Assembly: GCF_036967205.1 (NCBI RefSeq) | Contig: NZ_CP146022.1 | Span: 7,192,001 to 7,256,000, forward strand | DNA: 64,000 nucleotides | Direction: 5' to 3' | From: Streptomyces sp. Q6 | GTDB lineage: Bacteria; Actinomycetota; Actinomycetes; Streptomycetales; Streptomycetaceae | In this document: positions 1 through 16,846 of the stretch, piece by piece | How the letters are laid out: each line of letters starts with the position of its first letter | Numbering within the stretch: the stretch's first letter is position 1 | The notes under the pieces: model-generated | Database searches by the model: none | What the model saw: the letters and a program-made list of their open reading frames with translations, nothing else | Told to the model about the DNA's origin: nothing | Translations under genes and position numbers: made by a program

Positions 1-149
1 ACCAGGTGACCGCGTCCGATACGGTGCGGCTTGCGTACATGGGCATCCCAGATCTCCGCCTCGTATGCGAGACGCCGGAGCAGCGTGGGCAAGGCTGACA
101 GTTCTCCCTCGCCTTCGACGACGGAACCGATGGTCACCCGTTCACTCAT
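1..149 (-). CDS. DUF4276 (TOPRIM-like) protein, 5' part only
   Basis: The 5' end of a gene that runs off the left edge. The start ATG at 149 overlaps the stop of the upstream ATPase gene, so the two are translationally coupled. The visible 49 residues begin MSERVTIGSVVEGEGE and continue with LPTLLRRL; the VEGxGE signature followed by a PxLLRRL helix is typical of DUF4276, a small TOPRIM-like family usually encoded directly after an ABC/SMC-type ATPase. By analogy with OLD and PARIS pairs it may be the nuclease half of an ATPase-nuclease effector; that is inference. The acidic residues farther along the TOPRIM fold lie outside the window. Confidence 0.7.
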   Translation of the reverse strand, partial: MSERVTIGSVVEGEGELSALPTLLRRLAYEAEIWDAHVRKPHRIGRGHL

Positions 150-1437
150 CGCGACCCCCACCGGACTCCTGGGCGTCACTGGTGAGTTCGGGCTCCAACT
201 GGTCCGACCGCAGCAGGTCTTCGATCGTGGAGAGCCCGTCGGTGATGATGCCGCGGCTGATGCCGTCGAGTGGACCGATCACCGTCGCTCCGTCCTGAGA
301 CGCGACCATCTTCACCGCGTCGAGGTCGGCCTCCTTACGGTCGAAGAGCTGACTGCTCTGGCTGGTTCCCAGGACCTGCACGTGGTTGCTCGCCTCGGTG
401 AGCGCGTCGTACAGGGCTCCGGCGGCCATCGGGTGCAGACCCAGTTCGGGCTCTTCCACGGCGACGAGGCGGATCCTGCCGTCGCGGGCGCGAGGCTGGA
501 AGAGCGCGGCGAGCAGGCCGATCGCGCGGATGGTTCCGTCGGACATGGACTCGGCCCGAAAGGTTCGGGAAGGCTGTCCAGCGGCTGGCGCCAGGGTCAT
601 CTGAGCGGCGACGTAATCACCGGCACCTGAGGTCGGCGACGGCTCCACGCTGGTGAGGCCGGGGACGATGGCCGCCATGTAGGCGTCGATCCGCCTGCGT
701 ACGACCGGGTCCAGCTGGCTCAGTGTGGCACCGAGGTTGCCGCCGTCCTCGGACATGAGCGCGTTGGTGGTGAGCGGCCTGGGCTCCCGAAGCGCGGCCA
801 GGGCCGGATCGTAGAAGAACATGCCCGCGAGGCCGCGGTGGAGGGCGGCGTACACGGGACGGGTGCCGGCACTGGGCAGGTACAGGCTGTCCGTCTCGAC
901 CAAGCCCGTGACCCCGTTCATGTTGGGTGAACTCGGGAACTCGGAGTCCCTGACGAACTCTGCGGTGCGCGAGAAGCGGGCGGCCCGGCTTCCGTCCGGG
1001 GCGGTGAGCTCGCAGTCCTCGGTGTGGACGAACAGTTCTTCCTGCACCCCGTCCTCCGGCCCGGACGGCTCCGGCCCGTACCCGATGTCGAACGAGTAGG
1101 TTCCGTCCAAGTACGCGAGCGTTCCGCTCGCCTGCCTGCCTGGAACAGCAGAGGCAGGCAGGCGGACGCCTACGGTGATCCGGCATAGATCCGCCGGTTC
1201 CGGGTCCCGCCGCAAGACATTCAGGAGCCCGCCACGCGCGTCCACGGCCGGACCGAGCCCAGACGCGAGCGCGTCCCGTACGAAACGGAGAGCGTCCAGG
1301 AAGTTGGACTTCCCGGCCGCGTTCAGTCCGAGCAGCACGTTGAAGGCACCGAGCGACACGTCGCACGAGGCGATGGACTTGAAGTTCTCGATACGGACAC
1401 GGGTGACGAACGGGGCGGCGGGTGCGGTGTCGCTCAT
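142..1437 (-). CDS. AAA/ABC-type ATPase (RecF/OLD-like)
   Basis: A 431-residue cytoplasmic ATPase of the AAA_21/OLD type. An N-terminal strand-turn RIENFKSI leads to a P-loop GLNAAGKSN (residues 37-45). An ABC-like signature (SDGT) lies near residue 305 and a Walker B, VAVEEPELGLHP, near residue 330. The position that often holds the H-loop His reads GTSQSSQ. This organisation is seen in ATPases of OLD nucleases, PARIS AriA and related anti-phage pairs. Its start overlaps the hsdS stop by 4 nt and its own stop overlaps the DUF4276 start, so it belongs to the hsdMS transcript. It is probably an accessory effector embedded in a type I R-M operon; the role is inferred, the fold is confident. Confidence 0.85.
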   Translation of the reverse strand: MSDTAPAAPFVTRVRIENFKSIASCDVSLGAFNVLLGLNAAGKSNFLDALRFVRDALASGLGPAVDARGGLLNVLRRDPEPADLCRITVGVRLPASAVPGRQASGTLAYLDGTYSFDIGYGPEPSGPEDGVQEELFVHTEDCELTAPDGSRAARFSRTAEFVRDSEFPSSPNMNGVTGLVETDSLYLPSAGTRPVYAALHRGLAGMFFYDPALAALREPRPLTTNALMSEDGGNLGATLSQLDPVVRRRIDAYMAAIVPGLTSVEPSPTSGAGDYVAAQMTLAPAAGQPSRTFRAESMSDGTIRAIGLLAALFQPRARDGRIRLVAVEEPELGLHPMAAGALYDALTEASNHVQVLGTSQSSQLFDRKEADLDAVKMVASQDGATVIGPLDGISRGIITDGLSTIEDLLRSDQLEPELTSDAQESGGGRDE

Positions 1438-2723
1438 GACCCGTCAACTCCTCGACCGGAGGCGGTGGAGACGTCGAACTGGCCGGTTACGGCGGCGGTG
1501 ATGAGGGCCTGACGGCGTTCGTTGAGCAGTGCCACCTGGCGGCTCACCTTGTCCGCGAGATTGTCGATCTTGGCATTCTGGTGGCGGATCGAGGCAACGA
1601 TCTCGATTTGCTCATCCAGAGGCGGCAGTGGGATGCGCAGCATTTGGAGATCTGGAACATAGATCGTCTTATGGGTGGACCCCATAGCCAGCCGACCCAG
1701 CAGATCGGAGCGCATGGCGCGAAGGCACCACAGGAGGTAGTACGGGTTCAGGAGCGGACCGCACGTCCAGGTCACGAAGTCCTGGCTCGTGGCCATATCC
1801 AGCCCCATGACTCCGGAATATCCTGCGGACGCGGTGCGGCAGAGGAACACAGTTCCTACCGGATGTAGCTCGGCCGAGGAATTCGCGATACCCAATTCGC
1901 TGATTTTTTCACGGGTTTCGTGAAGGTCTTCCAGGCGGTCGTCTCGGACCTGCTTTACTTCGCCGGTTGTGATCCAAGGGATCGTGCAGCCTGTCCACCA
2001 CTCCGGGTGCGACCGGCTTGGTGTGTGGCCACTACCCATGCGGGAAACGAGCCCGACACTCACTTCTTTCCAGGTGTCTGGAATGCTTTCCATCCAGGCG
2101 AGCGTGGAGGCGCGGCGCTCAGGGACTGCGCTTCCTGAGACCGCATGGAAAACACCGGCACTGCGCCGCTCAGAAAGGCGGTCGAGGACCCGTGCTTCGG
2201 CATTCAGGAGGCTGTCGATGCGGGCGGTCTCGGCGTCGAGGAAGTCGGCGATGCGGCGCTGTTCCAGGGGGGCCGGAAAGGGAATCTTTAGATCGCGCAC
2301 CTGGCCATCACTAACGAACGGCAGAGGTGCAGACCCTGAAAGCTCTCCGAGATCAATGGTGGAGAGTGCGTACATCCAGAATCTCTGATCTCCAGCCTGG
2401 GGCACGACCGCCATCAAGTTGTTATCCATAGCCGATGCTTGCGTAAGCATTCTGCGAGGATTCTTAAGCAGGGCGGCTCCGACTTTCGGAAAAACTGTGG
2501 AGCCCGCAGGTGCCACACGTGCGCCAAGCGAGACGCTTTCCCTGCGGCTTACCCAGTTCCGCGCTCCCACCAATCGGTAGCCTTGGCGCTGAGTATTCAG
2601 GTCGGACACTTTAATGAACGGGACTTCTCCAGAATCATTGCCTTGATATTCGTGGGGAAATCCGACTCCGCTGATAATGCGTGCAACGCGACCCAACTTC
2701 ACAGTTGGAAAAAGGGTGGTCAT
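1434..2723 (-). CDS. hsdS: Type I restriction-modification specificity subunit HsdS
   Basis: 429 residues in the usual two-repeat layout: TRD1 (about residues 1-150) with the segment MTTLFPTVKLGRVARIISG, a first central helix (EQRRIADFLDAETARID, about 155-180), TRD2 (about 205-380) starting near PDTWKEVSVG, and a distal helix (DEQIEIVASIRHQNAKID). The helix pair matches conserved HsdS spacer helices that bind two HsdM subunits, and the two TRDs set a bipartite DNA target. The start overlaps the hsdM stop by 4 nt. The GC content of TRD1 is visibly lower than in neighbouring genes (AT-rich codons around 2300-2700), consistent with TRD shuffling or recent exchange. Confidence 0.93.
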   Translation of the reverse strand: MTTLFPTVKLGRVARIISGVGFPHEYQGNDSGEVPFIKVSDLNTQRQGYRLVGARNWVSRRESVSLGARVAPAGSTVFPKVGAALLKNPRRMLTQASAMDNNLMAVVPQAGDQRFWMYALSTIDLGELSGSAPLPFVSDGQVRDLKIPFPAPLEQRRIADFLDAETARIDSLLNAEARVLDRLSERRSAGVFHAVSGSAVPERRASTLAWMESIPDTWKEVSVGLVSRMGSGHTPSRSHPEWWTGCTIPWITTGEVKQVRDDRLEDLHETREKISELGIANSSAELHPVGTVFLCRTASAGYSGVMGLDMATSQDFVTWTCGPLLNPYYLLWCLRAMRSDLLGRLAMGSTHKTIYVPDLQMLRIPLPPLDEQIEIVASIRHQNAKIDNLADKVSRQVALLNERRQALITAAVTGQFDVSTASGRGVDGS

Positions 2724-4837
2724 TCGGTCACCTCGCCCAGCAGGGCCTGGATCTCCGACTCCAGCGCCTTCAATTCCGCGTCGATCTCCGCCAGTGGCCT
2801 CGGCGGTTCGTACACGTAGAAGTGGCGTGTGAACGGGATCTCGTAGCCGATCTTCGTTTTGGTGTGGTCGATCCAGGCGTCCGGGACGTGGGGGTGGACC
2901 TCACGGGTCAGGTAGGTCTCGACGTCGTCGTCCAGGGGGACGTTTTCGTAGTCGCGGAGGTCGGGGTCCGGTTCCTTGGCATGGCCCTTCAGCTTCTGGA
3001 CTTCGCCCTCGGGGTCGCGGACCCCGATCGCGTCGCGGAGCGCCTTCTTGAAGGTGACGCCCTTGGGGAGGGCCAGGCCGCCTTCGGCGGCTGCGGTGGT
3101 GAAAGCGACCTGGGCTTCGGAGAAGGTGGGCCAGGTCTGGCCGAGGAGGGAACTCAACGCATCGTTGAACGGCTGGAGTTCCGCGTCCACTAGCTTCGCG
3201 AGTTCGGCGGCCTCGTCGTCGGTGAGCTTGCGCCGGCCCGCGACCTTCTTCGCCGTCTCCGGGAGGGACTTGAGTGCCACGTCCTCGGCCTGCTTCTGCA
3301 TCGGCTTCGAGACGAGCAGAGCAGACAGGGTCTCGTCCGTCAGCTCGAAGCGGAGCTTCAAGGGGCGTTCAACCGTGATGCGCTGGTAGCCGAAGGCCGT
3401 GTTGTCGAAGACCTTGACCTTCGCGTGCATCGCGTGGGACGGGTCGGCCGCTGCCGTGATCGCCTCGCCGTACAGCTTCGTGATGTCGGCGATGTGGTTC
3501 GGCTTGCCGTTCTCGCCGTCGCCGAGTTCCTTGCGCTTGTCGCCCAGGGACTTGCGCATCTTCACCCACTGGTCGCGGGCGTCCAACAGCACGACCTTGC
3601 CCTTGTGTTCCGGCGACTTCCGGTTCGTCAGGATCCAGAAGTACGTCGAGATGCCCGTGTTGTAGAAGAGCTGGTCGGGGAGGGCGACGATCGCCTCCAG
3701 CCAGTCGTTCTCCAGGATCCAGCGGCGGATCTCGGACTCGCCCGAGCCGGCCGCGCCCGTGAACAGCGGGGAGCCGTTGAAGACGATGGCGACGCGGGAG
3801 CCGCCGCCCCCGTTTACGTCCACCGGCTTCATCTTGGACAGCATGTGCTGGAGGAAGAGGAGCGAGCCGTCGTTGATGCGCGGGAGGCCCGCGCCGAAGC
3901 GGCCCGCGTCGCCCATCGACTTGTGTTCGTACTCGACCTCGTCCTTGACCTTCTTCCACTCCACGCCGAAGGGCGGGTTGGCGAGGATGTAGTCGAACTT
4001 CTCGCGCTTGTGGCCGTCGTCGGAGAAGGAGTTGCCGTAGGCGATGTGCTCCGGGTCCTGGCCCTTGATCATGAGGTCGGAACGGCAGATGGCCCAGGAC
4101 TCGGGGTTGAGCTCCTGGCCGTAGACCTCGACCGTCGCGTCCTCGTTGAACCCGTGGACCTGCTCCTCGACCGCGCTCAGCATGCCGCCCGTGCCGCAGG
4201 CCGGGTCGAGCACGGTGCGGACGACACCGGGCATGGTCAGCGCGTCGCCGTCGGGGGCGATCAGCAGGTTGACCATGAGGTTGATGACCTCACGCGGGGT
4301 GAAGTGCTCACCGGCCGTCTCGTTGGACTGTTCCGCGAAGCGGCGGATCAGCTCCTCGAAGATGTAGCCCATGTTGTGGTTGGGAACCTTCTCGGGGCGC
4401 AGGTCGAGGTCGGTGAACTTGCCGATGACCTGGTAGAGAAGGTTCGCGTCGTCCAGCTTCTTGATCTGCTGGTTGAACTCGTACTTGTCGAGGACCTCGC
4501 GGGCGTTGTCGGAGAAGGCGCCGACGTACTTCGTCAGGAGCTGCCCCGCGTTCGACGCGTCGCCCGCGATGTCGCGCAGCGTGTACGTGCTGGTGTTGTA
4601 AAAGGAGTGGCCGGCGGCGCGGCGCAGGAAGTGACCGGTGTCGATGTCCTGGCCCTTGAAGCGCTCTACGGTCTCGTTGACCTTCTCGCGGGTCGGCTCC
4701 AGGACGCATTCGAGGCGGCGCAGGACGGTGAACGGCAGGATCACCTTGCCGTAGTCCGACTGCTTGTAGTCGCCGCGCAGGAGATCGGCGACGGACCAGG
4801 CGTGATTGGCCAGGGCCGTGTGGATGGCGCTGTTCAA
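2720..4837 (-). CDS. hsdM: Type I restriction-modification methyltransferase subunit HsdM
   Basis: 705-residue N6-adenine methylase subunit. The N-terminal HsdM helical domain (VADLLRGDYKQSDYGKVILP, residues 15-34) is followed by the SAM-binding motif DPACGTGGML (about 212-221) and catalytic motif IV NPPFG (about 282-286). It is longer than classical HsdM (around 520 residues): residues about 520-705 form a charged extension ending in a helix that probably contacts HsdS. First gene of an hsdM-hsdS-ATPase-DUF4276 run; the promoter presumably lies in the 184-nt gap upstream, which has a perfect palindrome. No HsdR is present in the window, so whether this is a full restriction system cannot be judged here. 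Confidence 0.95.
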   Translation of the reverse strand: MNSAIHTALANHAWSVADLLRGDYKQSDYGKVILPFTVLRRLECVLEPTREKVNETVERFKGQDIDTGHFLRRAAGHSFYNTSTYTLRDIAGDASNAGQLLTKYVGAFSDNAREVLDKYEFNQQIKKLDDANLLYQVIGKFTDLDLRPEKVPNHNMGYIFEELIRRFAEQSNETAGEHFTPREVINLMVNLLIAPDGDALTMPGVVRTVLDPACGTGGMLSAVEEQVHGFNEDATVEVYGQELNPESWAICRSDLMIKGQDPEHIAYGNSFSDDGHKREKFDYILANPPFGVEWKKVKDEVEYEHKSMGDAGRFGAGLPRINDGSLLFLQHMLSKMKPVDVNGGGGSRVAIVFNGSPLFTGAAGSGESEIRRWILENDWLEAIVALPDQLFYNTGISTYFWILTNRKSPEHKGKVVLLDARDQWVKMRKSLGDKRKELGDGENGKPNHIADITKLYGEAITAAADPSHAMHAKVKVFDNTAFGYQRITVERPLKLRFELTDETLSALLVSKPMQKQAEDVALKSLPETAKKVAGRRKLTDDEAAELAKLVDAELQPFNDALSSLLGQTWPTFSEAQVAFTTAAAEGGLALPKGVTFKKALRDAIGVRDPEGEVQKLKGHAKEPDPDLRDYENVPLDDDVETYLTREVHPHVPDAWIDHTKTKIGYEIPFTRHFYVYEPPRPLAEIDAELKALESEIQALLGEVTE

Positions 4838-5021: not shown

Positions 5022-7205
5022 CTATGGGGATGCAGGCCCCTCCGGTGGAAGCAGTGCGCCGGTAGCAAGTGCTCCGCTCATGAAATCGCTTGCTTGGGAA
5101 GCGAGTTCTGCGGCCCGGGTACCTGCGATCCGCAGCTCGTACAGGTGCCGGAAGACTTTGCCGTAACGGCGTTGCTCGGCCAGCGGGAGCAGAGGTACGC
5201 GTAGCTGGTTCGCGTCGATACGGAGGGTTGTGGAGCCGACGGCGGCGGCGCGGACGTTGCCGCCCGCGGAGAGGAAGCCGCCGAGGAACCATGGATCGAG
5301 GCGGGCCGGGTCAGGCCGGAAGAGACGGAGGTGCGGGCCGAGGAGGTTGCCCTCGTCCTCCTCGTCCGCGACCCGGAAGGGAACGGGGCCGGAACCCGTA
5401 CGGTCCTGCACGACGAGCGGGATGAGGATGTCGCCGGCCGATACGCGTACTGCTGTCTCCAGGTTCTCGTCGGGGGCAGGCTCCGAAGCGCGGGCACCGG
5501 TGGCTACGTCTCGCGCCTTCAGCATCAGGTTTGTGAAATGGGCAGTCTTGCCGCTGCCTGCGGTGACGTGCGCCCCGGTCGATGTGCTCGCCAACCCTCG
5601 GCTCGTCCTCTGCTTGAAAGGCGCGCTCGTGTACGTGGCCAGCGCACCGCCCCTGGACAGGTCGGCCACGGTCGCCGTGCGCCAGGCGCGTACCTCTTCC
5701 CCGGCTGGGGCCGGTTCGCCCAGGGCGGTGAGTGAAGCGGTCAGCCTCTGTGCGGCATCGGCCAGTCGGTTCCGCAGGCCGGTGGCCGTCGCCGCCGCTT
5801 CCGAAGGGACGACGACCGTGCCGGAGTTCACGTGCCGGGACGGCGTTAGGTCCACGCGCTCGTCGAGGAGGTCGACGAACGGGACCGCGCGTGCGACCCC
5901 TGGCACCGCCTCGAAACGGTCCGGGGCCTTGGCGTAGGCGTCCCAATGAGTGAGGACTGCCTTTGGAGGCTCGGTCGGCTCAGGTGCCCGCATCACTGCG
6001 GCCTGCGCGTCGACGAACAGGACGGACTGCGCCTCCGGCGGCTGCGGCGAGGGACGCTGAAGTACCCAGAGCTGAAGCCTCACGCTGGTGAAGGTGGTCA
6101 GCCCGCCGGGCAACTCCACCACCGCGCGCAGTGCGCCGGTACGCACCAGTTCGGCGCGCACCCGCCGTCCCGACCCGCTGAAGGCTGGGCTGGGCGGCAT
6201 CAGGAGGACAGCGCCGCCGCCGGGCCGGACGTGGGCCAACGCGTGCTGAACCCAGGCGAGTTCGGAGTCCATGCGGCTGGGGACACCGAAGGCCCATCGC
6301 GAGTCGTAGGCGAGCTCGTCGTGACCCCAGTCGCGGTCACCGTACGGCGGGGCGCACAGGACACCGTCGACGGTCAGCCCCGGATACGCGTCAGCACGCA
6401 GGGAGTCGCCGGCCCTGACAGAGGTGTGCGCCCCAGCGGCGGCGATCCGCAGCTGGACAGCGGCCCGCCGGGCCTGGACGGGTGCGATGTCCTGGCCGTA
6501 CAACTCGGTTGCTCCGGCGGTGGCAGCAGCGGCCAGGAGGGAGCCGCTGCCGCAGGCGGGATCGAGGACCCGGGTGGGGGCCGTCGCATCGCTGACGGCT
6601 GCGAGCAGGGCAGCCATCAGTTCGGGCAGTGGGGCAGGAGTGGCGTACGAACCTGTGGCCTTGGAGTCGGTCAGCTCGCGCTGGGCCAGAGCATCCAGAG
6701 TGGACGCGCCAGTCCCGCCGGACGTGAGCTCGGAGTCCACGCAGGCGGTGACTGCTCGGAGCAGTTCCGCGGCATCGGGGCCGTATACGTCCGGGCCCGC
6801 GTCCGGCTCAGGTGCTTCGACAGCGGCCAAGGTCGTGCTCACGGCCGCGGACGCCTGCTCGGCGAGAGCCGCGTCCGGCAGGCCGGACCAGGTGGCGCGC
6901 TGTTCCGCCCCTGCCTCCACCGCCGCGAGCACGAACGGGATCAACCGCGAGGCGGTCGCACCCCCCGACGGACCCTGGCGCAGCAGGTTCCGCAGCTCCT
7001 CCGCCGGGTCGGTCTCCGCCGTGTAACCACGGCCGGCCAGCCACTCGCGGACCGCTTTCACCTCGTACAACGGACTGCTGTCCGAGCCGCCGGTCGGCGC
7101 GGGGAAGTCCTCGTGGCGACGGCGCCAGTTGCTCACCGTGGCACGGGTGACTCCCGCCAGCCGTGAGATCTCGGCGGCGGTGACCAGGGTGGATGACGTG
7201 GGCAT
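5022..7205 (-). CDS. N6-adenine DNA methylase homologue with N-terminal HTH
   Basis: A 727-residue protein. Residues about 8-35 form a MerR/excisionase-like helix-turn-helix (AAEISRLAGVTRATVSNW) and continue into a short winged segment. The methylase core has motif I DPACGSGSLLAAA near residue 213 and motif IV near 283. Motif IV reads CAPPYGDRDWG, with Ala where N6-methylases normally have Asn, Asp or Ser. The C-terminal third (about 510-700) resembles an HsdS-like recognition region ending in LLPLAEQRRYG, so specificity is probably built in (type IIG/BREX-PglX-like design). The start at 7205 has an AAGGAAG ribosome site; an upstream ATG at 7244 is possible. The Ala suggests an impaired or purely regulatory enzyme, which needs testing. 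Confidence 0.8.
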   Translation of the reverse strand: MPTSSTLVTAAEISRLAGVTRATVSNWRRRHEDFPAPTGGSDSSPLYEVKAVREWLAGRGYTAETDPAEELRNLLRQGPSGGATASRLIPFVLAAVEAGAEQRATWSGLPDAALAEQASAAVSTTLAAVEAPEPDAGPDVYGPDAAELLRAVTACVDSELTSGGTGASTLDALAQRELTDSKATGSYATPAPLPELMAALLAAVSDATAPTRVLDPACGSGSLLAAAATAGATELYGQDIAPVQARRAAVQLRIAAAGAHTSVRAGDSLRADAYPGLTVDGVLCAPPYGDRDWGHDELAYDSRWAFGVPSRMDSELAWVQHALAHVRPGGGAVLLMPPSPAFSGSGRRVRAELVRTGALRAVVELPGGLTTFTSVRLQLWVLQRPSPQPPEAQSVLFVDAQAAVMRAPEPTEPPKAVLTHWDAYAKAPDRFEAVPGVARAVPFVDLLDERVDLTPSRHVNSGTVVVPSEAAATATGLRNRLADAAQRLTASLTALGEPAPAGEEVRAWRTATVADLSRGGALATYTSAPFKQRTSRGLASTSTGAHVTAGSGKTAHFTNLMLKARDVATGARASEPAPDENLETAVRVSAGDILIPLVVQDRTGSGPVPFRVADEEDEGNLLGPHLRLFRPDPARLDPWFLGGFLSAGGNVRAAAVGSTTLRIDANQLRVPLLPLAEQRRYGKVFRHLYELRIAGTRAAELASQASDFMSGALATGALLPPEGPASP

Positions 7206-7290
7206 CGAAGTCTTCCTTGCGGCGGGACGAGGCAGGACGGCCACGAGGGCTGAAAGCAGCTTACACCTCAGACAGACCTAAACGAGTGGA

Positions 7291-7392: not shown

Positions 7393-8646
7393 ATGTCCGC
7401 TTCAGCGCCCGCCGCCCCTTCCTTCGCCTTCCCGTCCGCCACCGCCGAAGGCATCCAGCTGACCGTCATTCCCGTCCGCAACGACGCGGTGATCGGCGCG
7501 ATGTCCCTGCTCACGCTGCTCCAGCTGGTCCCCGACCCGAAGAAGGAGGAGAGCAAGCAGGCCCTGAAGTACGCCTCCGGGGCCGCCCGCCGCCACGCCG
7601 AACTGCGCGCCCTCGTCCAGCGCACCCTCACCACCCAGAAGGGCAAGAACGTCACGACGTACGCCGCGTACATCGCCTCCGGCATCAGCGGGAAGAACGG
7701 CGCCGCCTGGTCCCTGCCGCCCGTCACGCTCTGGCTCGACGGCATGCCCGCCGCGATCGGCGCGGAACTGGTCGACCGCACCGGGATCTGCCCCCTGACG
7801 CTCACCCCGGGCTCCTCGATCGTCGCCATCGACGGCGAGACCCAGGTCACCGCCTGGCACCTGCTCCACGACGACCCCGAGCGCTTCGGGATCACGTATG
7901 CCGACCTCGGCCAGGTCCGTATCCCCTTCGAGCTGTACTTCGGGCTCTCCGTCGCCGACGCCCGGCAGATCTTCTACGACCGCAACGTCGAGGGCGTGCC
8001 GGTCGCGAAGAACCTCGCCATGTCCATGGACCAGCGCGACCTGGGCACGCAGATCACCCACCGGGTCGCGGACGCGGTCCGGGTCGAGGATGCCGACGGG
8101 AAGATCATCCCGTTCTCGAAGCTGGTGCAGGCACGCAAGCGGCAGCTCAGCAAGTCCGACCCCGAGGTCGTCCTCCTCTCCGCCCTTCGCGTTCTCGTCA
8201 TCACCGCCCTGCACGGCCGTCCGGGCCTCGCCCTCACCTCCGCCACGATCCACGACGGCAAGCTCCCCGACGGTGTCGACGCCGACCAGGTTCAGCGTGA
8301 GCTCGTACCCCTGCTCACTCGGCTGATCAGCCACCTGTACCCGCACTTCGCGGCCCGCGACGCGGTCACCACCCCTGCGGTCCTCGCCGGCCTCGGTATC
8401 GCCGCGCACCAGGCCGTGAGCTGGGCAGGCGACGCCCACGGCCGCCTGAGCGCTGACGAACTGCTCCGGCTTCTCGACTCCGTCCGCTTCGAGCGCGACG
8501 CCCGCTACTGGGACGGCGTCGCCGCCAGCGCCAACGCCGCCGGAACCCTCAACTTCGGCGGCGGCGCCAAGGACGCCGGGGGCCGGGTCGCTGACGCACT
8601 GCTCCGGCCCGACAGCGAGTACGGGCGCAAGATCCGCGGCTGGTGA
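7393..8646 (+). CDS. DndB/DGQHR-like domain protein
   Basis: 417 residues, similar in length and layout to DndB, the regulator of DNA phosphorothioation. The family is named for a DGQHR motif; here the equivalent is IDGETQ (residues 146-151) in AIDGETQVTAWHLL, followed by an FELYFGLSVADARQIF segment that matches the usual post-motif helix. No dndA/C/D/E or sspBCD is present, so the protein acts outside a standard sulfur-modification operon. GAGG lies 8 nt before the start. It is divergent from the HTH-methylase and 253 nt ahead of the helicase-chaperone operon. A regulator or sensor of modified DNA is plausible. Family assignment is moderate. Confidence 0.65.
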   Translation: MSASAPAAPSFAFPSATAEGIQLTVIPVRNDAVIGAMSLLTLLQLVPDPKKEESKQALKYASGAARRHAELRALVQRTLTTQKGKNVTTYAAYIASGISGKNGAAWSLPPVTLWLDGMPAAIGAELVDRTGICPLTLTPGSSIVAIDGETQVTAWHLLHDDPERFGITYADLGQVRIPFELYFGLSVADARQIFYDRNVEGVPVAKNLAMSMDQRDLGTQITHRVADAVRVEDADGKIIPFSKLVQARKRQLSKSDPEVVLLSALRVLVITALHGRPGLALTSATIHDGKLPDGVDADQVQRELVPLLTRLISHLYPHFAARDAVTTPAVLAGLGIAAHQAVSWAGDAHGRLSADELLRLLDSVRFERDARYWDGVAASANAAGTLNFGGGAKDAGGRVADALLRPDSEYGRKIRGW

Positions 8647-8899: not shown

Positions 8900-11800
8900 A
8901 TGCCGAAGCGTGCCCGGCGAAGGGCTGTCCTCTTGGCCGAGCAACGGTCGGTCGACCACGCCTACGAGTGTCTGGAGCAGACCCGGCAGGAGGCCACGGA
9001 CCTCAAAGCGGTGAGTGCTGCCGCGAGCGGCAAAGACGCGATCGACGTGAACCAGGCCTGGCAGCGCGAACTGGAAGCCCTGGATCTCGGCGGAAATGCT
9101 CTGGTGTTTCTCCGCGCGGATGTGACCGAGACGACAGACGGCGAACGCGAGACGTACTACATCGGGCGCCGTACCGTCCGCGATGCGGAACGTAACAGGG
9201 TGGTCCTCTCGTGGACCGCGCCGGCGGCGATCAGGTGGCGGCTGACCGACGCGAAGGATCCTGGCGAGGTCGCGTTGCTGCGCCAGCTCGTCTGCCAGAC
9301 CCGCAAGGTCAAGCGCTACCTCGATCTTCATGGGGCCGAACCCGACCGCGAACCCTCGGTCGATGACGCAGAGCAGGCGGCGGCCCCGGTGGATGAGACG
9401 GCTGCCGAATCCGACGAATTCGGGTGGCACGACCACCTCCTCGAAGAGCTCGGGCGCGCCCGCGACGGCGCCATGCACGACATCGTCGAGACGATCCAGC
9501 GTGAGCAGTTGCTCCTGGTCGCGGAGAAACCGGAAGGCGTGCTGGTCGTCCAGGGCGGGCCCGGCACCGGCAAAACCGCCGTCGCCATGCACCGGGTGCG
9601 ATGGCTCCTCGACAATCAGCACACGACGGTGGGCGACCTGCTCGTCGTGGGCCCGAATCGCGGCTTCCTGGAGTACGTGGGATCCGCGCTCGGCGAATTG
9701 GGCGCCAATGGTGTCAGCCTGCTGGAACTGCCCGCTCTCTGGTCAGGGGCCGGCGCTCCCCGCGACATACACAATGTGGCGGCGGTCAAGTCCGGCCCGG
9801 GGATGGAAGAGGTTCTCCGGCGAGCAGTCGATCAGCAGGTCACCACCGATCCCGAACGTCTCGCTGCCGTCGTGGGCGGTCCGGAGTTCACCTTCGAACT
9901 CCGCAACCGTGAGGTCTCCATATCCGTGGCCGAACTGGCCGAGACCGCAGCACACACCCTCGCCGGCAGTAGCCCGTACCAGGTTCGGCGAGAACGCTTC
10001 CGTCAGCAGATGGTGCAGCGCCTCACCGACGCGTACATCGCGCTTCTGCCCGGACCTGCCGATATCGACTACTTCGAAGTCGTACTCGGTCTGAAACCCG
10101 TCACGCGCCTCCTCCGGCGCATCGCCCCCGAGCTGACCGCCGCCGGCGTGTACCGAAGGCTGCTCACCGACACGAGCGCGCTCGCCTCGGCCGCCGGTGG
10201 CACCCTTTCTGCTGAGGAGCAGTCTCTTCTCCGTGACCAGGGCGGGGGCGCCCGAGGTGGGGCGCAGCAGTTCAGCCTCGAGGACCTGGTGTGCCTGGAC
10301 GAACTGGAGCACATCCTGACCGGTCGGCCGGACCGGACGTACGGGCACATCGTCATCGACGAAGCCCAGGACCTCACGCCCATGCAGGCCCGGTCACTGG
10401 CCCGTCGTTGCCCGAGCGGGGCCATGACGGTCGTGGGCGATCTCGCTCAGGCCACCGGGCCGGTGCCGTACGAGAACTGGGACCAGCTGGGTGGGCTCCT
10501 TGCCCGACGAAACGGCTGGAGGCTGGCCGAGCTGCGTACAGGCTTCCGCGTCCCCGGCGAAGTGATGGAGTTCGTACGCCTTCTGGGAGAGCACTGCGCT
10601 CCGGGTGTCACCGCCCCGGACTCCGTCCGGCAGGCAGGCACCGAAGTGGCCGTCATGGAAGACGCTGACCCTGTGGGACGAGCGGTCATGTACGCGGTGG
10701 AACAGGCGGCGGACGATCCCCGGCGCACGGTGGCGGTGATCGTACCGGCGGACGGGGAGTGGCGAGAGAAGGCGGCAGCCGCGGTCAGCGGATACGGGGA
10801 GATATCGGTCCTGACACCGGAGGAAGCGAAGGGGCTGGAGTTCGACCACGTTGCCGTTGTGGAACCCACTGCGGTCGCGGACAGCGACCCGGCCGGCCCA
10901 TGCCACCTGTACGTCGCCCTGACCCGATGTACCCAGAGCCTCGCGGTCACCCACCGCAGTCCGCTGCCGGTGTGGCTCGGTGGTCCCGCCACCGTGCCCG
11001 GCCCATCGCCGAAACAGCTGGTCGGACGTCTCCAGGAACGCACTGCGGCCGTGCGGCCTGGCACCTGTAGCCGGTTCCATGCGGACGGCACCCGTTGCGT
11101 CAACGGCGCCGACCATGCTGACGGCTGGTGCCGCCAGCCAGAATGCGGGGGCTTCCGGACGGCCGAACCCATGTCGCCGGGCAAGGCGGGCTACCTCTCG
11201 GCGCCCCGGGACGCGGAGAGCGACCATCGGCTGGAGCTCGTACCCGACGACATCGCTCTCACGCGTATCGAGTCCTCCGCCTGTGCCGCTTTCACCGCGC
11301 GACACGGGGGCGACCGTGCCGAGGCAGCCGTCGAACTCCACTCGATGCTGCGTCCCTTCCTCGCGGAAGGGAAACACCACCGGACCAAGAACACGTGGTA
11401 CCTGGATCTCGACGGATACCGCCTGGTCCTGGATCCGGGAAGCAGGGCCGTCATCGGATACCACAGTGGGCACCCTGAACGAAGTTATTCCCAGTTCACC
11501 GCAGGTGTCCCTTCGCGCGTGGGGAAGGAAGCACGCGCTGCTCGCCGGTCCGCGTTGACCAGGCCATGGACAGAGCCGGGCACTCCCCTTGATGAAGCCG
11601 CCGCACGAGGGATACCGGTGGCAGGTATCCACCTCGCTCGTAGTGCCTGTCAGGGGTACGAGCGGATCCACCGCCTCCGAGTCGATCCGGACGACTCCTT
11701 CCTCCAGCGACTCCGTGAGGACCTCGCTTCGGACCTGGGTACCGGCACGATTCACCGGGTCGGCAATCGGATGGTCGTCGACGGCGAACGAAATCAGTGG

Positions 11801-12421
11801 ATCATGCGGGCGGACGGCGAGGCCCTGCTCTCCGTACGCCAAGCCGGAGCCGAGATCGACTGGGATCCCGCCACCCGGGCCACGTGCATTTCCCAGCCCA
11901 CCAACGGAAGCGACATGTCCCTAATGAGCACCCAAGGTCTCGCGGAAGTTCCTGATCCCGGGAAGAGTCTCCTGGCCTTGCCTCTGTCCGGGCTGGAGGC
12001 CTTGGTCTCGGTACGCGAGCAGAGCGCCCGGGCCGATCGATCACACGAAGGTCTCCGTCATCGTCTGCTTGGCGAACTCTTCGAGCTGGACGGCGATGTC
12101 GGCCATGACGGTTACGTCGACGCCTGGCACCTGGGCCCCGAAGGACTCACGCTCTTTGAAGCCGTGGCGACGGAATCCTGCATGTACACGGATCTCCGTG
12201 AGGCCGCACTGCATCTGCTGGAGAGCGCGGCTCTACGTCAAGGTGGGCAGCCCGAGTATCTGGTCGCCGTACTGCGGGACGCGCCGGCCGAACCATGGGC
12301 GGTCGACGCCGTACGACAGGCTTTCGGGGTGGAGGTCGCCTGGCGTGACCGGGGCGGCTGGGGAGGGCCGGGCGCTCGCCGCATCATCGGTGCAGGGACT
12401 GAGCAGGATGCTGATCGTTGA
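8900..12421 (+). CDS. HelD/UvrD-like ATPase with long C-terminal extension
   Basis: 1173 residues. The N-terminal part (1-200) is helical and charged as in HelD/HelR. The SF1 motor carries Walker A GGPGTGKTA (about 219-227), DEAQDLTPMQ (about 487) and motif III VVGDLAQATGP, ending near residue 700 with VAVVEPTA and YVALTRCTQSL. The extension 700-1173 is not part of normal HelD. It has a four-cysteine cluster (about 723-750: CSRFH, TRC, GWC, PEC) that looks like a zinc ribbon, a WYLDLDGYRLVLDP segment near 835, and a C-terminal region with VDAW...LFEA...YTDLREAALHLLE that recalls PD-(D/E)xK folds but lacks the Lys. First gene of a four-gene operon; the next gene begins 53 nt later. Motor assignment is strong, extension function unknown. 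Confidence 0.8.
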   Translation: MPKRARRRAVLLAEQRSVDHAYECLEQTRQEATDLKAVSAAASGKDAIDVNQAWQRELEALDLGGNALVFLRADVTETTDGERETYYIGRRTVRDAERNRVVLSWTAPAAIRWRLTDAKDPGEVALLRQLVCQTRKVKRYLDLHGAEPDREPSVDDAEQAAAPVDETAAESDEFGWHDHLLEELGRARDGAMHDIVETIQREQLLLVAEKPEGVLVVQGGPGTGKTAVAMHRVRWLLDNQHTTVGDLLVVGPNRGFLEYVGSALGELGANGVSLLELPALWSGAGAPRDIHNVAAVKSGPGMEEVLRRAVDQQVTTDPERLAAVVGGPEFTFELRNREVSISVAELAETAAHTLAGSSPYQVRRERFRQQMVQRLTDAYIALLPGPADIDYFEVVLGLKPVTRLLRRIAPELTAAGVYRRLLTDTSALASAAGGTLSAEEQSLLRDQGGGARGGAQQFSLEDLVCLDELEHILTGRPDRTYGHIVIDEAQDLTPMQARSLARRCPSGAMTVVGDLAQATGPVPYENWDQLGGLLARRNGWRLAELRTGFRVPGEVMEFVRLLGEHCAPGVTAPDSVRQAGTEVAVMEDADPVGRAVMYAVEQAADDPRRTVAVIVPADGEWREKAAAAVSGYGEISVLTPEEAKGLEFDHVAVVEPTAVADSDPAGPCHLYVALTRCTQSLAVTHRSPLPVWLGGPATVPGPSPKQLVGRLQERTAAVRPGTCSRFHADGTRCVNGADHADGWCRQPECGGFRTAEPMSPGKAGYLSAPRDAESDHRLELVPDDIALTRIESSACAAFTARHGGDRAEAAVELHSMLRPFLAEGKHHRTKNTWYLDLDGYRLVLDPGSRAVIGYHSGHPERSYSQFTAGVPSRVGKEARAARRSALTRPWTEPGTPLDEAAARGIPVAGIHLARSACQGYERIHRLRVDPDDSFLQRLREDLASDLGTGTIHRVGNRMVVDGERNQWIMRADGEALLSVRQAGAEIDWDPATRATCISQPTNGSDMSLMSTQGLAEVPDPGKSLLALPLSGLEALVSVREQSARADRSHEGLRHRLLGELFELDGDVGHDGYVDAWHLGPEGLTLFEAVATESCMYTDLREAALHLLESAALRQGGQPEYLVAVLRDAPAEPWAVDAVRQAFGVEVAWRDRGGWGGPGARRIIGAGTEQDADR

Positions 12422-12474
12422 GATTTCGGCGCCGCCCGCCGTGGCGCGCGGGGGTACGTGAGACGTGAGGGCGG

Positions 12475-14178
12475 ATGACTGAGAACAACGGTGCGTTCGT
12501 GTCGGCGCAGTCGTCGGGTGTGCCTTTGACGCGGGCCGAGGCGGTCGCAGCGTGGCGCGAGCATCGACGGGCCCGTCGTGAGGAGATAGCCGACGGCGCC
12601 GCCCGGTCCGACGGGCCGGACGGCTTCGTCCTGCGGCGCTGGCGCAGGGCCGGCGTATTCGGGGCGGAGGCCGTGGGGCTCGTACAGGAGCTCATTTCCG
12701 ACCTCCTGACCGATGCTCTCTCCAGGACCGACGTGCCGGAGGACGCACTGGACATCCTCCGCCAGTGCTGGGACGGCGAGCCCGTGGCCCAGTTGCCCGC
12801 CGCTGTGCGAGCCGTACTCGAAGGCGCGGCTCCGGATCGGATCGCCGCCGCTCTCAAGACCGTCCGAGACGTCGATCTGCCCTGGCTCACCGCCGAGGGC
12901 CGACTGCAGCTCGACTATCTGATGTCTTCAGAGAGCATCCGGCTTGATCGTGAAAACCTTCCGACCACGAGCCAGGATCCCGACGGTGCCTTCGCACTCC
13001 ACCAGATACTGCATGATCGCGATGTGCAGTCGCTGTCTCTCGTCCAATGGGCAAAAGCGCTGCCCTGGGCACCACTCGGGGTGCTGGACGATCTGATCGA
13101 CAGTGGCGTCATCACCCGGAGGACAGCGCCGTGGAACAAGCGGAGTAGCAAGCAGGAGCAGGCCTACCTGCTCGCTCGCCTCGCTCCTGAGTACGTCGAC
13201 CCTGAGGACGTCGTAGACCTCCACTGGACCGAAGCCCTGGACCGTCGACGGTTCCTCGACGAGGAGGACGTCGAGTGGGAGGAGGGCAGCGTCTACGACC
13301 TGCTGCAGAGCGCTGCGGACGGTGACACCAGCGTTCTCAAGAACCTGGAGTACGCGCTGCCGCGCTCTCTCGTGCTGGAGTTGCGCCGCATCCAGGACGG
13401 AGCCCTCACGGGCAACTGGGACCCGGACATCCTCGCGGACCAAGGCCTGTGGCGACTGATGTCCGCACTCTGGAGCCCCAAGACCGCGGTGAACCCGGGC
13501 AGGAGCGAGTTCCACGAGTTGACGGCGCTGCAGTTCGCCTACGACGCCCTCATCCTGGGGGAGATCAAGAAGGCCCGGCTCCAGCTCGACAAGATCGTGG
13601 AGTTCGTCGAGGGCGACCGGCGGCGCCAGACCGAAGCATGGAACATGCGTGCGTACCTCGCTCTCCTCGATGAGGATCTGGACAGTGCGCTGATCGCTCT
13701 GAGCAATATCGTCCAGCACGAGCCGATGGCCGAAGCCAATCTTCAGTTGGTTCGGCGACGTCAGGCCACCCCTCGTAATGATCGGGAGCGCGCCGCGAAT
13801 CCCTACCTCGAACTCGGACTGCCCCATGGTTCCCAGTTCTGGAAGGCTCGCTGGAGAGACCTGCGTCGGGAGTTCGAAGAAACCTCGGACCGTGATCAGT
13901 CAGCGCGCGTCAACTGGGCGCAAAGCCGTATCCGGCAGGCGGAACGCGACGAGGACTGGTCCGACATCTTCACGGTGCCGCTCGACGCCGACACCTTCAG
14001 GCTTCCGAGCGCACCACCCGTGCTGATCACACCACCGGTGGGGGCGCTGTCCCGCCGTACCGACCCGCAGAGTGCCGAGACTCTCGCAATCGTGCGCGAC
14101 CGTGCCGTCGCGGGTCTGCTCCCGACCTTGCTCAATGCGCCCCGGCGCCCCGACCACCAGCACAGGACGACCGCATGA
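12475..14178 (+). CDS. Helical-repeat protein with C-terminal J-like segment
   Basis: 567 residues with no family I can name. The body (about 60-430) is predicted largely helical; residues 345-430 (AYDALILGEIKKARLQLDKI, AWNMRAYLALLDEDLDSALI) read as TPR-like pairs. Residues about 442-494 follow the J-domain pattern NPYxxLGL, then an aromatic/basic helix (FWKARWRDLRREFEE), a loop, and a third helix (VNWAQSRIRQAERDED). The HPD tripeptide that triggers Hsp70 ATPase is absent; the loop reads TSDRDQ. The stop overlaps the next start (ATGA), and an Hsp70 gene follows one gene later, which supports a co-chaperone role. That role is inference. Confidence 0.7.
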   Translation: MTENNGAFVSAQSSGVPLTRAEAVAAWREHRRARREEIADGAARSDGPDGFVLRRWRRAGVFGAEAVGLVQELISDLLTDALSRTDVPEDALDILRQCWDGEPVAQLPAAVRAVLEGAAPDRIAAALKTVRDVDLPWLTAEGRLQLDYLMSSESIRLDRENLPTTSQDPDGAFALHQILHDRDVQSLSLVQWAKALPWAPLGVLDDLIDSGVITRRTAPWNKRSSKQEQAYLLARLAPEYVDPEDVVDLHWTEALDRRRFLDEEDVEWEEGSVYDLLQSAADGDTSVLKNLEYALPRSLVLELRRIQDGALTGNWDPDILADQGLWRLMSALWSPKTAVNPGRSEFHELTALQFAYDALILGEIKKARLQLDKIVEFVEGDRRRQTEAWNMRAYLALLDEDLDSALIALSNIVQHEPMAEANLQLVRRRQATPRNDRERAANPYLELGLPHGSQFWKARWRDLRREFEETSDRDQSARVNWAQSRIRQAERDEDWSDIFTVPLDADTFRLPSAPPVLITPPVGALSRRTDPQSAETLAIVRDRAVAGLLPTLLNAPRRPDHQHRTTA

Positions 14179-14822
14179 GTGCCATGAAGAAGACCAAACC
14201 CGCTGCCGGCGGGCAACAGCCGGCACAGAAGAAGGCCAGGGCGCCCCGCCGCGGGCAACAGGTGCAGGGGAAGACCAAGACCACCGGTCGCGAACACCGG
14301 GAGCAGAAGAAGCAGTGGATCGACGAGATGGAGCTGCGCACTCACCGACCCGAGGAGCTGCTCGACCCTGCGGCTCTGCTTGCTCGTTTCACCGAGCGGG
14401 CGGCCGGTCTCCTCGAAGCCTTGCCCGCGGACACGCGTCCGACGACGGCCGTGGTCACTGCTGCTCTGCGCCAGGCCGTACTGGAGGCCTTCCGGACTCG
14501 TGAGGAGTATGTGGCGCGGCTGGTCGAGAGCGATGCGCACTGCTGGGGCATCCTGCCCGCGGCAAAGGACATGCGTCGTGGCATCCGAACCTCGCTCGTG
14601 GACTCGGGTATCCGCGTCGTCGAGTCCCCGGAGGAAGAGGAACTGTTCGTGGTGGTCGAAGGCGAGGGGGAGGGCTTCGAGGTCGTACGCCCGGCCTACG
14701 TCGACCAGTCCACCGGAAAGCTCGTCCTTTCCGGACAGTTGCGCCGCATTCCGCTCCGCGTGGGCCGGCGGATCGACGACGAGGGCCGGGATGGGGCCGG
14801 GCAGGGGGCGACAGAAGCATGA
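14175..14822 (+). CDS. Small protein with basic N-terminus, possible Hsp70 partner
   Basis: 215 residues, unrecognised. Residues 1-45 are Lys/Arg/Gln-rich and likely disordered. Residues about 50-125 are helical, and 130-205 are beta-rich with a run of acidic residues (VESPEEEELFVVVEGEGEGF) and VRPAYVDQSTGKLVLSG. Sandwiched by 4-nt ATGA overlaps between the J-like gene and the Hsp70 gene, so stoichiometric expression is likely. A helix-then-beta layout and a position next to dnaK-like genes recall GrpE exchange factors, but no GrpE sequence signature is convincing. Confidence 0.65.
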   Translation: MSAMKKTKPAAGGQQPAQKKARAPRRGQQVQGKTKTTGREHREQKKQWIDEMELRTHRPEELLDPAALLARFTERAAGLLEALPADTRPTTAVVTAALRQAVLEAFRTREEYVARLVESDAHCWGILPAAKDMRRGIRTSLVDSGIRVVESPEEEELFVVVEGEGEGFEVVRPAYVDQSTGKLVLSGQLRRIPLRVGRRIDDEGRDGAGQGATEA

Positions 14823-16846
14823 CCAGCACCGGTATCGACTTCGGCACCACCAACTCCGTAGTCGCCCAGTGGCAGGGTGACGACGTCGAGGTACTACCCC
14901 TCGACGCCCATCACCTCGATGCGGACTGGCGCCGCCCCGGGTTCGAGTACCTCTTCCCCTCCGTGGTCGGAACGAGTTCGCTTCGGCGTGGCCCTCTCTT
15001 CGGGTGGGAGGCCAAGCTCCGTTCCGAAGAGGCCGCGGAAGCATGCAAGCGCCTCCTCAAGAGCGACGAGTACGTGAACATCCGTGACCGCAGATATGCG
15101 GCGACCACCGTCGCCGCCGGCGTCTTCAGCGCCATGAAGAGCGGCGCGCTCCACAACCTCACCGGCATCGACCGTGCTGTGATCACCGTTCCGGCCAACG
15201 CGACCGGTGCGGCCCGCTATCGGACCCGCGCGGCCGCTCGCTTCGCCGGGATCGAGGTACAGGCCCTCCTCAACGAGCCCACGGCAGCAGCGATCTCCCA
15301 CGTACACGACATGCAGGACGACGCTCAGATCCTGGTCTTCGATTGGGGCGGCGGCACGATCGACGTCACCGTGCTCGACTACGAGGGCGGCTTCTTCGAA
15401 GAACGGGCATCCCGAGGCGTGACCGAGCTCGGTGGCCTGGAGATCGACCGGCGATTGCGCCGGCTGATCCTGGACCGTGCTCCGGCACGACGGGAATGGA
15501 GCCCGGCGCAGGAACGGCAGTTCCGTCTCGACATCGAACGCAGCAAGATCCTGCTGTCCTCGCAGCAATCCGTCCGGATCCTCACCCCGGACGAACGAGA
15601 AGTCGAGATCTTCCAGGGCGAGCTCGAAGAAGCGATCACAGACCTCGTCGACCGTGCGCTCGCCCCGGTCGAGGCATGCCTCCGCGATCTGCACATGGCC
15701 CCGCTCGACGTCGACGACGTCCTCATGATCGGCGGCACCAGCCAGATCCCGAGCGTACGAGCCGCAGTGTCCGAAGCGCTCCAGATGCCTTTGGTCCCCA
15801 CGGACATCTGCGACCCGATGACCGCGGTGGCCCGCGGCGCCGCGATCGCCTCGGCCGTACTGGCCAAGGAGACCGACGGAGTCATCCAGGTCGCCAACAG
15901 CCACGCGCTGGGCACGGCGACGAAGGACCCCTCCGGCCGCAGCCGGTTCAGCGAGATCATCCCCCGTAACAAGGCACTTCCCTGGACCGAGAAGAAGAGC
16001 TACACCCCGAGGGACGATTACGCCCGCAAGCTGACCGTCCAGATCTGGGAGGGCGACCGCGACAAGGACCTGGACGACCCCGACAACGTCCAGCTCACCG
16101 AGATCACTCTCAACTATCCGAAGCCCCGGGTGAAGGAGAAGTCCCGCTTCGGCCTGGCCTACACCTATGACTCCAACGGCCTGCTGCACGTCAAGGCCAC
16201 GCTGGAGCACACCGGCGAGGTGGTGATCGACGAGGAGGTGAAGAGTTTCGGGACGGGAGGTCCCACCCCGGAGGTACGGCAAGAGCTCGACGACCTCATG
16301 AACGCAAATTCCGCGCCGACACCCGCGAGCATGGCGAACAAGCCGAAACCCGCAGATCGGCCGTCCACCGCCGCTCCGACGGACGGGCCAAGCACGATCG
16401 TGGTGGACGGTTCGAACCTGGCGTGGATCGGCCGATCTCCGGTGCGACCCGGCGTGTACCAGCCCGATGACCGACCGAGTTACAGCCAGCTGGGGGAGGC
16501 GCGTGACGCTCTTGCCAAGAAGTACCCGGATGCCGACATCCAGGTAATCGTGGATGCGACCTTCCGCCACAGGGTCGCGGATGACGAACGGGAGGCAGTC
16601 ACGGCGGCGCTCAACAAGAGCGAGATCGTTCAACCGCCTCCCGGCACCGAGGGCAAGGGAGATGCCCTGGTCACCGCGATCGCGGACGAGTGCGACGGTG
16701 TGATCGTCACCAACGACAACTTCGCCGAACTCCAAGACCGCTACCCGTGGCTCCGAGAGAGTGGTCGTGTGCTGGGCGCCACCCTCGTCAAGGGCAATTG
16801 GATTTTCACCGCCCGCACCTGCGTGGCTCCTCGCGGGAGGCGCTGA
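14819..16846 (+). CDS. Hsp70 (DnaK-like) fused to a Zc3h12a-type NYN ribonuclease domain
   Basis: 675 residues. Hsp70 nucleotide-binding domain: GIDFGTTNSVVAQW (5-18), NEPTAAAI (about 152), FDWGGGTIDVTVLD (about 174), MIGGTSQIPS (about 303). A beta substrate-binding region follows (about 360-480). The helical lid is missing; a 45-residue linker rich in Pro, Ala and Ser leads to a NYN/PIN-like domain (about 524-668): VVDGSNLAW with D530, VDATFRH with D579, KGDALVTAI with D615, and DGVIVTNDNF with D633. That order matches the Zc3h12a/Regnase-like RNase family, including its acidic metal-binding set. Last gene of a four-gene overlapping operon. A chaperone-gated RNase is inferred; both domains are clear. 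Confidence 0.9.
   Translation: MTSTGIDFGTTNSVVAQWQGDDVEVLPLDAHHLDADWRRPGFEYLFPSVVGTSSLRRGPLFGWEAKLRSEEAAEACKRLLKSDEYVNIRDRRYAATTVAAGVFSAMKSGALHNLTGIDRAVITVPANATGAARYRTRAAARFAGIEVQALLNEPTAAAISHVHDMQDDAQILVFDWGGGTIDVTVLDYEGGFFEERASRGVTELGGLEIDRRLRRLILDRAPARREWSPAQERQFRLDIERSKILLSSQQSVRILTPDEREVEIFQGELEEAITDLVDRALAPVEACLRDLHMAPLDVDDVLMIGGTSQIPSVRAAVSEALQMPLVPTDICDPMTAVARGAAIASAVLAKETDGVIQVANSHALGTATKDPSGRSRFSEIIPRNKALPWTEKKSYTPRDDYARKLTVQIWEGDRDKDLDDPDNVQLTEITLNYPKPRVKEKSRFGLAYTYDSNGLLHVKATLEHTGEVVIDEEVKSFGTGGPTPEVRQELDDLMNANSAPTPASMANKPKPADRPSTAAPTDGPSTIVVDGSNLAWIGRSPVRPGVYQPDDRPSYSQLGEARDALAKKYPDADIQVIVDATFRHRVADDEREAVTAALNKSEIVQPPPGTEGKGDALVTAIADECDGVIVTNDNFAELQDRYPWLRESGRVLGATLVKGNWIFTARTCVAPRGRR

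Follow-up and report, generated by a model that had tools for sequence, protein, structure and literature searches.

A co-inherited three-gene Hsp70 cassette, with a predicted RNase domain in most relatives, recurs beside DNA-targeting defence systems in Streptomyces

We analysed a stretch of 64,000 nucleotides of Streptomyces sp. Q6 (NZ_CP146022.1, forward-strand positions 7,192,001 to 7,256,000), referred to as the window, with positions numbered from its first letter. Our subject is three adjacent genes encoding a J-like protein with TPR repeats (JTPR), a small GrpE-like protein (SMALL) and an Hsp70 fused to a NYN-type RNase domain. By gene order and protein distances, the three are one co-inherited unit, called here the cassette, and in most of its named locations this unit adjoins genes of DNA-targeting defence. 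Our preferred view, held tentatively and at rather less than even odds, is that the cassette would be a private Hsp70 switch plugged onto such defence systems, gating an RNase in most lineages. A sequence-only reading of the same DNA had described a four-gene operon that began with a helicase. Its four codirectional open reading frames (ORFs) were confirmed on the + strand: the helicase (8900..12421, 1173 aa), JTPR (12475..14178, 567 aa), SMALL (14175..14822, 215 aa) and the Hsp70 (14819..16846, 675 aa), with a 53-nt gap between the first two and then two ATGA overlaps of 4 nt.

Gene order proved to be conserved beyond this strain for the last three genes, the helicase not being included. In each of the 49 named loci (a lower bound, since they come from a single short-pattern scan), the Hsp70 gene lies no more than 1193 bases beyond the J-like gene and on its strand. 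ORFs were called with a codon-usage script of our own, for which 12 ORFs of the window served as the training set; loci carry the prefix L and genomes the prefix G. The slot between the two genes contained a called ORF in 45 loci and one found by translation in three more, L089 being the one locus where none turned up. A 4-nt overlap between the middle ORF and the Hsp70 start was seen in 43 of the 45. BLAST identified this ORF as the small protein in 43 of the 45 as well, the ORFs of L073 and L080 being assigned by position alone. Over 32 loci, the between-locus distances of the three proteins correlate at 0.95–0.98. By this order and these correlations, JTPR, SMALL and the Hsp70 are one inherited cassette. 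The 49 loci lie in Streptomyces (45), Actinomadura (two), Actinacidiphila (one) and Nocardiopsis (one). Within the genus, a search of 295 genomes gave the J-like protein in 22, including its own; of 396 genomes sampled across the phylum, two had it, namely its own and one other of the same genus.

The helicase, by the same comparison, is a neighbour of the cassette and not a conserved part. The superfamily 1 (SF1) HelD/UvrD motor of the sequence-only reading stands in so far as the protein is nearest to the HelR/HelD motors that recycle RNA polymerase, its best NCBIfam model scoring 242.9 bits against a curated cut-off of 1100. The nuclease-like tail that was proposed for it was not confirmed; no nuclease family was among the library matches of the helicase in Pfam, PADLOC or NCBIfam, and this reading of the tail, lacking a library match, was dropped. 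By BLAST, the last part of the tail is common to 12 of 20 helicase relatives. No intact helicase copy was seen by tblastn in 69 cassette stretches from overlapping sets, where fragments or weak matches occurred in four stretches, which are two places each seen twice. Around helicase relatives, 22 places were listed besides the window's own and 20 were fetched (G107 and G192 were left out); the cassette genes were absent from all 20 of these stretches, which are of up to 20 kb, with a partner defence family present in three. On these two results the four-gene unit was rejected as a conserved unit. They also make it very improbable that the helicase and the three cassette proteins form one four-part machine, for which the 53-nt gap and common strand could be cited, along with the long HelD-like gene of one other genome (G172), at a distance of ∼30 kb from a cassette. 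As read from bit scores, the long HelD-like family is present in 22 of 199 genomes of the genus, the window's own included, and some HelD-like match is found in 196 of the 199. In five named loci of restriction–modification (R-M) type, a gene of ∼190 aa without a Pfam family (c17; L033:11850-12425 and relatives) lies between a DndB-like or methyltransferase gene and the cassette, and in the window the helicase occupies that place.

The description of the last protein as an Hsp70 carrying a ribonuclease domain was borne out, as both parts exceed their Pfam cut-offs. The HSP70 family scores 213.6 bits, with the profile matched to 490 of 599 only; the ATPase domain and the beta part of the substrate-binding domain (SBD-beta) reach to about residue 490 (to 16288), which leaves no room for the usual alpha lid. 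The NYN domain follows at residues ∼526–646 (16394–16756), where RNase_Zc3h12a scores 28.5 bits against a cut-off of 23, and the PDB matches of the NYN profile are ZC3H12A/B/C and KHNYN. The window protein has the acids D530, D579, D615 and D633; D530, D615 and D633 align with those of ZC3H12B and ZC3H12A, and D579 is kept in eight of eight aligned proteins. The family score and these catalytic acids point to a Zc3h12a-like domain and a predicted RNase. It belongs to the family of the human Regnase and KHNYN enzymes; like ZC3H12 (Regnase) and KHNYN it has a NYN domain with matching acids, and unlike them it has this domain, here a predicted RNase, fused to an Hsp70. 

The state of the NYN domain was compared over 48 aligned Hsp70s, from the window and 47 loci (L067 and L069, with cut or short ORFs, were dropped, and alignment A1 left out L030 and L046). 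The domain is intact, with D530, D615 and D633 all present, in 28 proteins, degenerate in three and absent from 17. The 17 proteins without it are exactly those of the loci with Druantia IV. Although this association gives a Fisher p of 2.4e-13, it corresponds to one event on the Hsp70 tree, and the p value is therefore no evidence of repeated events. Each NYN state forms one group on the tree. Loss of the domain is favoured over gain, because an intact-NYN Nocardiopsis protein branches off below the group that unites the degenerate and absent states (93/80; uncertain, the branch being long). The RNase proposed as the effector is weakened as an essential output by the 20 proteins in which the domain is degenerate or absent. 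At the position of VVDG, the tails without NYN have VNG, which is suggestive only of a possible trace of the domain. Two further Hsp70s with a degenerate NYN were seen, one near a PglW-type gene (L043:12250-14307) and one near a type I R-M system (L046:6138-8204).

The Hsp70 ATPase residues D8, T11, K70, E171, D194 and T199 are kept in 47–48 of the 48 proteins, and the residues of the SBD-beta pocket remain hydrophobic. In contrast, R167, Q378, D393, Y145, N147, D148 and V218 are absent from all 48 cassette proteins and kept by the genome's own DnaK. D481 was dropped as a lost contact, being missing from that DnaK as well. Y145, N147 and V218 matter for DnaJ binding. In passages of PMC8215388 and PMC7289447, the aspartate of the J-domain HPD motif is described as bonding to R167 and Q378, with R167 paired to D393, and D148 as carrying the substrate signal. 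Another Hsp70 of this genome, of 838 aa, is without D393, Q378, N147 and D148 and has R167, Y145 and V218. That protein lies on the same chromosome ∼0.3 Mb from the cassette, in a second defence-like cluster (L229; G000:C1:7509000-7528900), where the Hsp70, with a zinc-ribbon match, and a GrpE gene adjoin McrB/McrC-type genes, a UvrD helicase, an N6 methyltransferase and DrmMI/DpdE-type genes.

The other half of the standard contact is missing from the J-like protein. JTPR has a helical N-terminal region, TPR repeats at residues ∼330–435 (13462–13779) and a J-like region at ∼440–495 (13792–13959). Its TPR part agrees with the earlier description: the AlphaFold2 model (predicted local distance difference test score, pLDDT, 90.3) is nearly all helical and has structural matches to TPR proteins. 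JTPR has no significant family in Pfam, PADLOC or NCBIfam, a match to SnoaL_4 having E 0.06. The J-like region was upheld in a weak form. Compared with a J-domain profile by hhalign, it gives 47% and a score of 25.7, above the best of 100 column shuffles (16.3); the profile used 30 of 32 rows chosen by their HPD motif, which favours typical members. Residues 440–495 of the model form two helices of plausible length with 2 residues between them. The HPD motif itself is absent, being found in none of 39 aligned J-like proteins (38 loci and the window, with 11 of the 49 loci left out as near-copies, short calls or for a doubtful start; alignment A4) and nowhere in the 49 named proteins and the window's as called, some of these calls being short.

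SMALL had been noted as a possible exchange factor, and by its profile it is GrpE-like. The GrpE-like part spans residues ∼86–184 (14430–14726) and, compared with GrpE by hhalign, gives 88.8% and a score of 43.1, the best of 100 column shuffles reaching 17.4; here the profile used 19 of 31 loci, chosen by their RPA-V motif and so again favouring typical members. SMALL matches no family in Pfam, PADLOC or NCBIfam, and profile searches of PDB sequences with the J-like and small proteins gave chance-level rows, at E 0.12 and up. The N-terminus is basic, with 16 K/R among the first 60 residues of the window's protein, and a CxxC motif is present in 12 of 36 small proteins.

The cassette resembles the DnaK–DnaJ–GrpE set in having three parts and an Hsp70 with ATPase domain and SBD-beta, and differs from it in having no HPD motif, no contact residues, no room for the alpha lid and a fused RNase. 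What the sequence-only reading called a complete triad survives as a triad-like set, with its canonical cycle weakened. Since both halves of the standard J contact are gone together, the cycle either has a new trigger or is slow and under another kind of gate. The joint absence of the adaptor's HPD and of the Hsp70 residues that meet it raises the matter of how an Hsp70 runs without a standard J-domain.

Defence genes had been expected nearby, and their linkage to the cassette was confirmed. Seeded families of DNA-targeting defence adjoin the cassette in 38 of the 49 named loci, also with near-identical self matches barred, compared with one of 35 control stretches (Fisher p 1.2e-12). Each control was a 20-kb stretch of one of the same contigs, at a distance of roughly 60 to 210 kb from a cassette; the single positive is a DpdE-type match of 97.8 bits, and an Hsp70-like gene in two of the controls was not counted as a partner. 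The seeds were taken from the window and the cassette loci, so that the contrast measures how these families recur and does not extend to defence genes in general. This contrast bears on the idea that the cassette serves stress response or proteostasis and accumulates with defence genes in variable regions of the chromosome without a role in defence. We consider that improbable, given the single control stretch with a partner family and a fixed gene order with Druantia IV in 16 loci; to its credit are the 11 loci without a seeded partner, and also that no cassette relatives were found on plasmids, phages or viral contigs.

The partners are of several kinds. A type I R-M system with a second methyltransferase stands beside the cassette in six loci, and Druantia IV in 17 (all with DruE), in 16 of which the order is DruF–DruL–DruE–cassette. 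DpdE-type genes are present in 10 loci; a DrmMI-type methylase or a large DruE-like helicase often accompanies them, as do LeoA/LeoBC-type genes in some. A further unnamed locus (L043) adjoins a PglW-type gene. On the Hsp70 tree the partner label changes five times for type I R-M, six times for HelC-DpdE and once for Druantia IV, the grouping of L060, L066, L071 and L081 being a visual judgement based on ORF sizes, plus scans in the case of L066 alone. Partners have thus been swapped repeatedly. In the clade nearest the window, a LeoBC/LeoA-type (dynamin-like) gene pair lies directly 3' of the cassette (L029:14580-19293 and relatives).

Conversely, the second methyltransferase family is widespread in the genus, with 191 of 295 genomes having it (E up to 1e-60); among its 26 listed near-full-length matches (≥50% identity), five lie within 14 kb of a cassette, from which we conclude that R-M systems mostly do without it. 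The same genomes contain nine DruL loci, with the cassette in five, a PIN-type gene in that place in three and neither in one. In Druantia IV without the cassette, the gene directly after DruE was seen at L109:14085-15545, L110:14258-15682 and L112:13831-15273; that of L109 is a PIN_8 protein without a PADLOC match, and its counterparts in L110 and L112 are 75–84% identical to it.

These observations also bear on a strong rival, to which we give a smaller though still substantial chance, namely that the cassette is a dedicated chaperone which folds, assembles or recycles large restriction machines (HsdR/M/S, DruE, DpdE), the NYN domain being optional and serving, for example, to trim complex-bound RNA or to autoregulate mRNA. 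The partners are indeed very large or multi-subunit enzymes, and the hydrophobic SBD-beta pocket would suit this role. The rival stays alive because the RNase can be absent without the chaperone being absent, the chaperone part being kept in the 17 proteins without NYN and the three with a degenerate one. However, the same cassette accompanies unrelated partners, most R-M systems manage without it (only five of the 26 listed matches having one within 14 kb), the NYN active site is complete in 28 of 48 proteins, and the lid and J-contact residues are gone.

In our preferred reading of a private switch, the adaptor and the GrpE-like partner would at rest keep the Hsp70, and hence the RNase, in an inactive nucleotide state. 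Because the HPD contact is lost, the trigger of ATP hydrolysis would be a ligand of SBD-beta or of the TPR/J-like adaptor in place of a standard J-domain. This ligand would most probably be a segment exposed on a phage protein, or on the partner restriction complex while it is at work. The cycle would then release the NYN domain, leading to cleavage of RNA and a halt of the infected cell, and so would back up DNA restriction as a second line of defence. Where the RNase is absent, in the clade with Druantia IV, the switch presumably acts directly on Druantia proteins. We infer, then, that the cassette senses infection, with the RNase as its output and the halted cell as the outcome. A broader proposal, which we regard as less likely than not, is that such cassettes may constitute a transferable class of Hsp70 relay. 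Its private cycle would run independently of HPD and would have evolved jointly with a GrpE-like partner and with a J-like TPR adaptor that lacks HPD. The relay would report on DNA-restriction machines of several unrelated kinds and, in most lineages, control an RNase.

Several points weigh against the switch. With NYN absent or degenerate in 20 of 48 proteins, the RNase is not a universal output. The J-like and GrpE-like assignments come from profile matches, with no match in the curated libraries, and the J-like one is weak; the structure search with JTPR gave matches to TPR proteins and other helical ones, with no J-domain chain among the matches listed. Part of the lost-contact pattern is not unique to the cassette, as the 838-aa Hsp70 shares it. 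Where no seeded partner was present, proteins were scanned in five of the 11 loci; restriction or defence matches came from three of these (L066, L056 and L080) and none from the other two (L067 and L053). Finally, the linkage does not tell which side controls which.

The kept ATPase residues are relevant to one more alternative, that the Hsp70 binds RNA and not peptides, and brings the NYN domain to viral or aberrant RNA, as proposed for CnuD of the CoCoNuT systems. The parts of PMC11090510 concerned with CnuD and the Hsp70–McrB fusions predict that Hsp70 homologues next to restriction systems and RNases bind RNA, and the basic start of SMALL (16 K/R in 60 residues) and its CxxC motif in 12 of 36 proteins would fit such a role. 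The argument for CnuD, as given there, rests on degenerate ATPase motifs, whereas the cassette proteins keep these residues in 47–48 of 48 cases along with a hydrophobic peptide pocket, and we think this alternative unlikely. By the same parts of that paper, the likeness is an Hsp70 homologue whose predicted role is alongside restriction systems and RNases, and the difference is that CnuD occurs with HEPN in place of NYN. CoCoNuT systems are marked by an NxD McrB GTPase with McrC/CnuC, and no McrB or McrC family was found among the window proteins scanned against Pfam.

The sequence-only reading knew of no name for the system, and we found no description of the three-gene cassette in the open literature, subscription papers and most preprints being outside the scope of that search; a look-up of terms in PMC10482375, confined to the terms used, gave no mention of it. 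A close precedent is the GAP1-N2 GTPase-centric conflict systems (Kaur et al. 2020, PMC7159879), many of them in actinobacteria, for which the sections dealing with these components predict HSP70, GrpE and a DnaJ- or TPR-bearing protein. As described there, their core consists of GTPases with GAP1 and FNIII-repeat proteins, unlike the cassette with its NYN-bearing Hsp70 and absent HPD. JTPR has no FNIII match in Pfam, GAP1 was not hit among the window proteins scanned, and no GTPase family was found among 10 stretches of the window scanned, covering part of its ORFs, or in five more (four upstream and one downstream). Predicted Hsp70 parts of bacterial conflict systems have thus been listed before, at least in the sections cited; what the anatomy of the cassette adds is a claim that can be tested. 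Its movement among several classes of DNA-targeting system suggests that a chaperone layer may sit atop restriction.

For Druantia type IV, the PADLOC publication (PMC8565338), in the part that defines the system, names DruE, DruF and DruL, and the cassette genes are not among these, although cassette relatives follow DruF–DruL–DruE in the 16 named loci. Part of Druantia IV therefore has three more genes in its operon than that definition names. Nine window proteins were scanned with PADLOC, and the families listed for them (the best 25 in the case of four proteins) include none of DruE, DruF and DruL; a search of the window's genome for DruL at E 1e-5 gave no match. If the relay proposal were true, the cassette would be an unlisted part of a Druantia IV sub-branch, and its RNase would, to our knowledge, be the first immune RNase controlled by an Hsp70.

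In the window, the partner is a type I R-M system on the − strand, as the sequence-only reading had seen in the adjacent R-M genes. It is complete, with HsdS (1434..2723) and HsdM (2720..4837), each matched in Pfam and PADLOC, and HsdR further upstream, just outside the window. A second N6 DNA methyltransferase (5022..7244, − strand; Pfam N6_Mtase 121.2 bits, PADLOC MTase_I 649.6 bits) follows, and then, between the R-M set and the helicase with the cassette, a DndB-like (DGQHR) protein on the + strand (7393..8646; Pfam DndB 32.9 bits against a cut-off of 29.1), a gene also present in the R-M type cassette loci L054, L055 and L075. Within the R-M operon is a HEC-01-type AAA ATPase (142..1437, − strand; PADLOC HEC-01A 382.9 bits), overlapped by a DUF4276 gene (HEC-01B, PADLOC 252.8 bits) that extends beyond the window edge; the pair sits between HsdS and HsdR (window 1-1437; L047:19035-19661). 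Past HsdR, on the same strand, lie a UvrD-type helicase and a protein kinase with a TPR match (L047:11693-15574).

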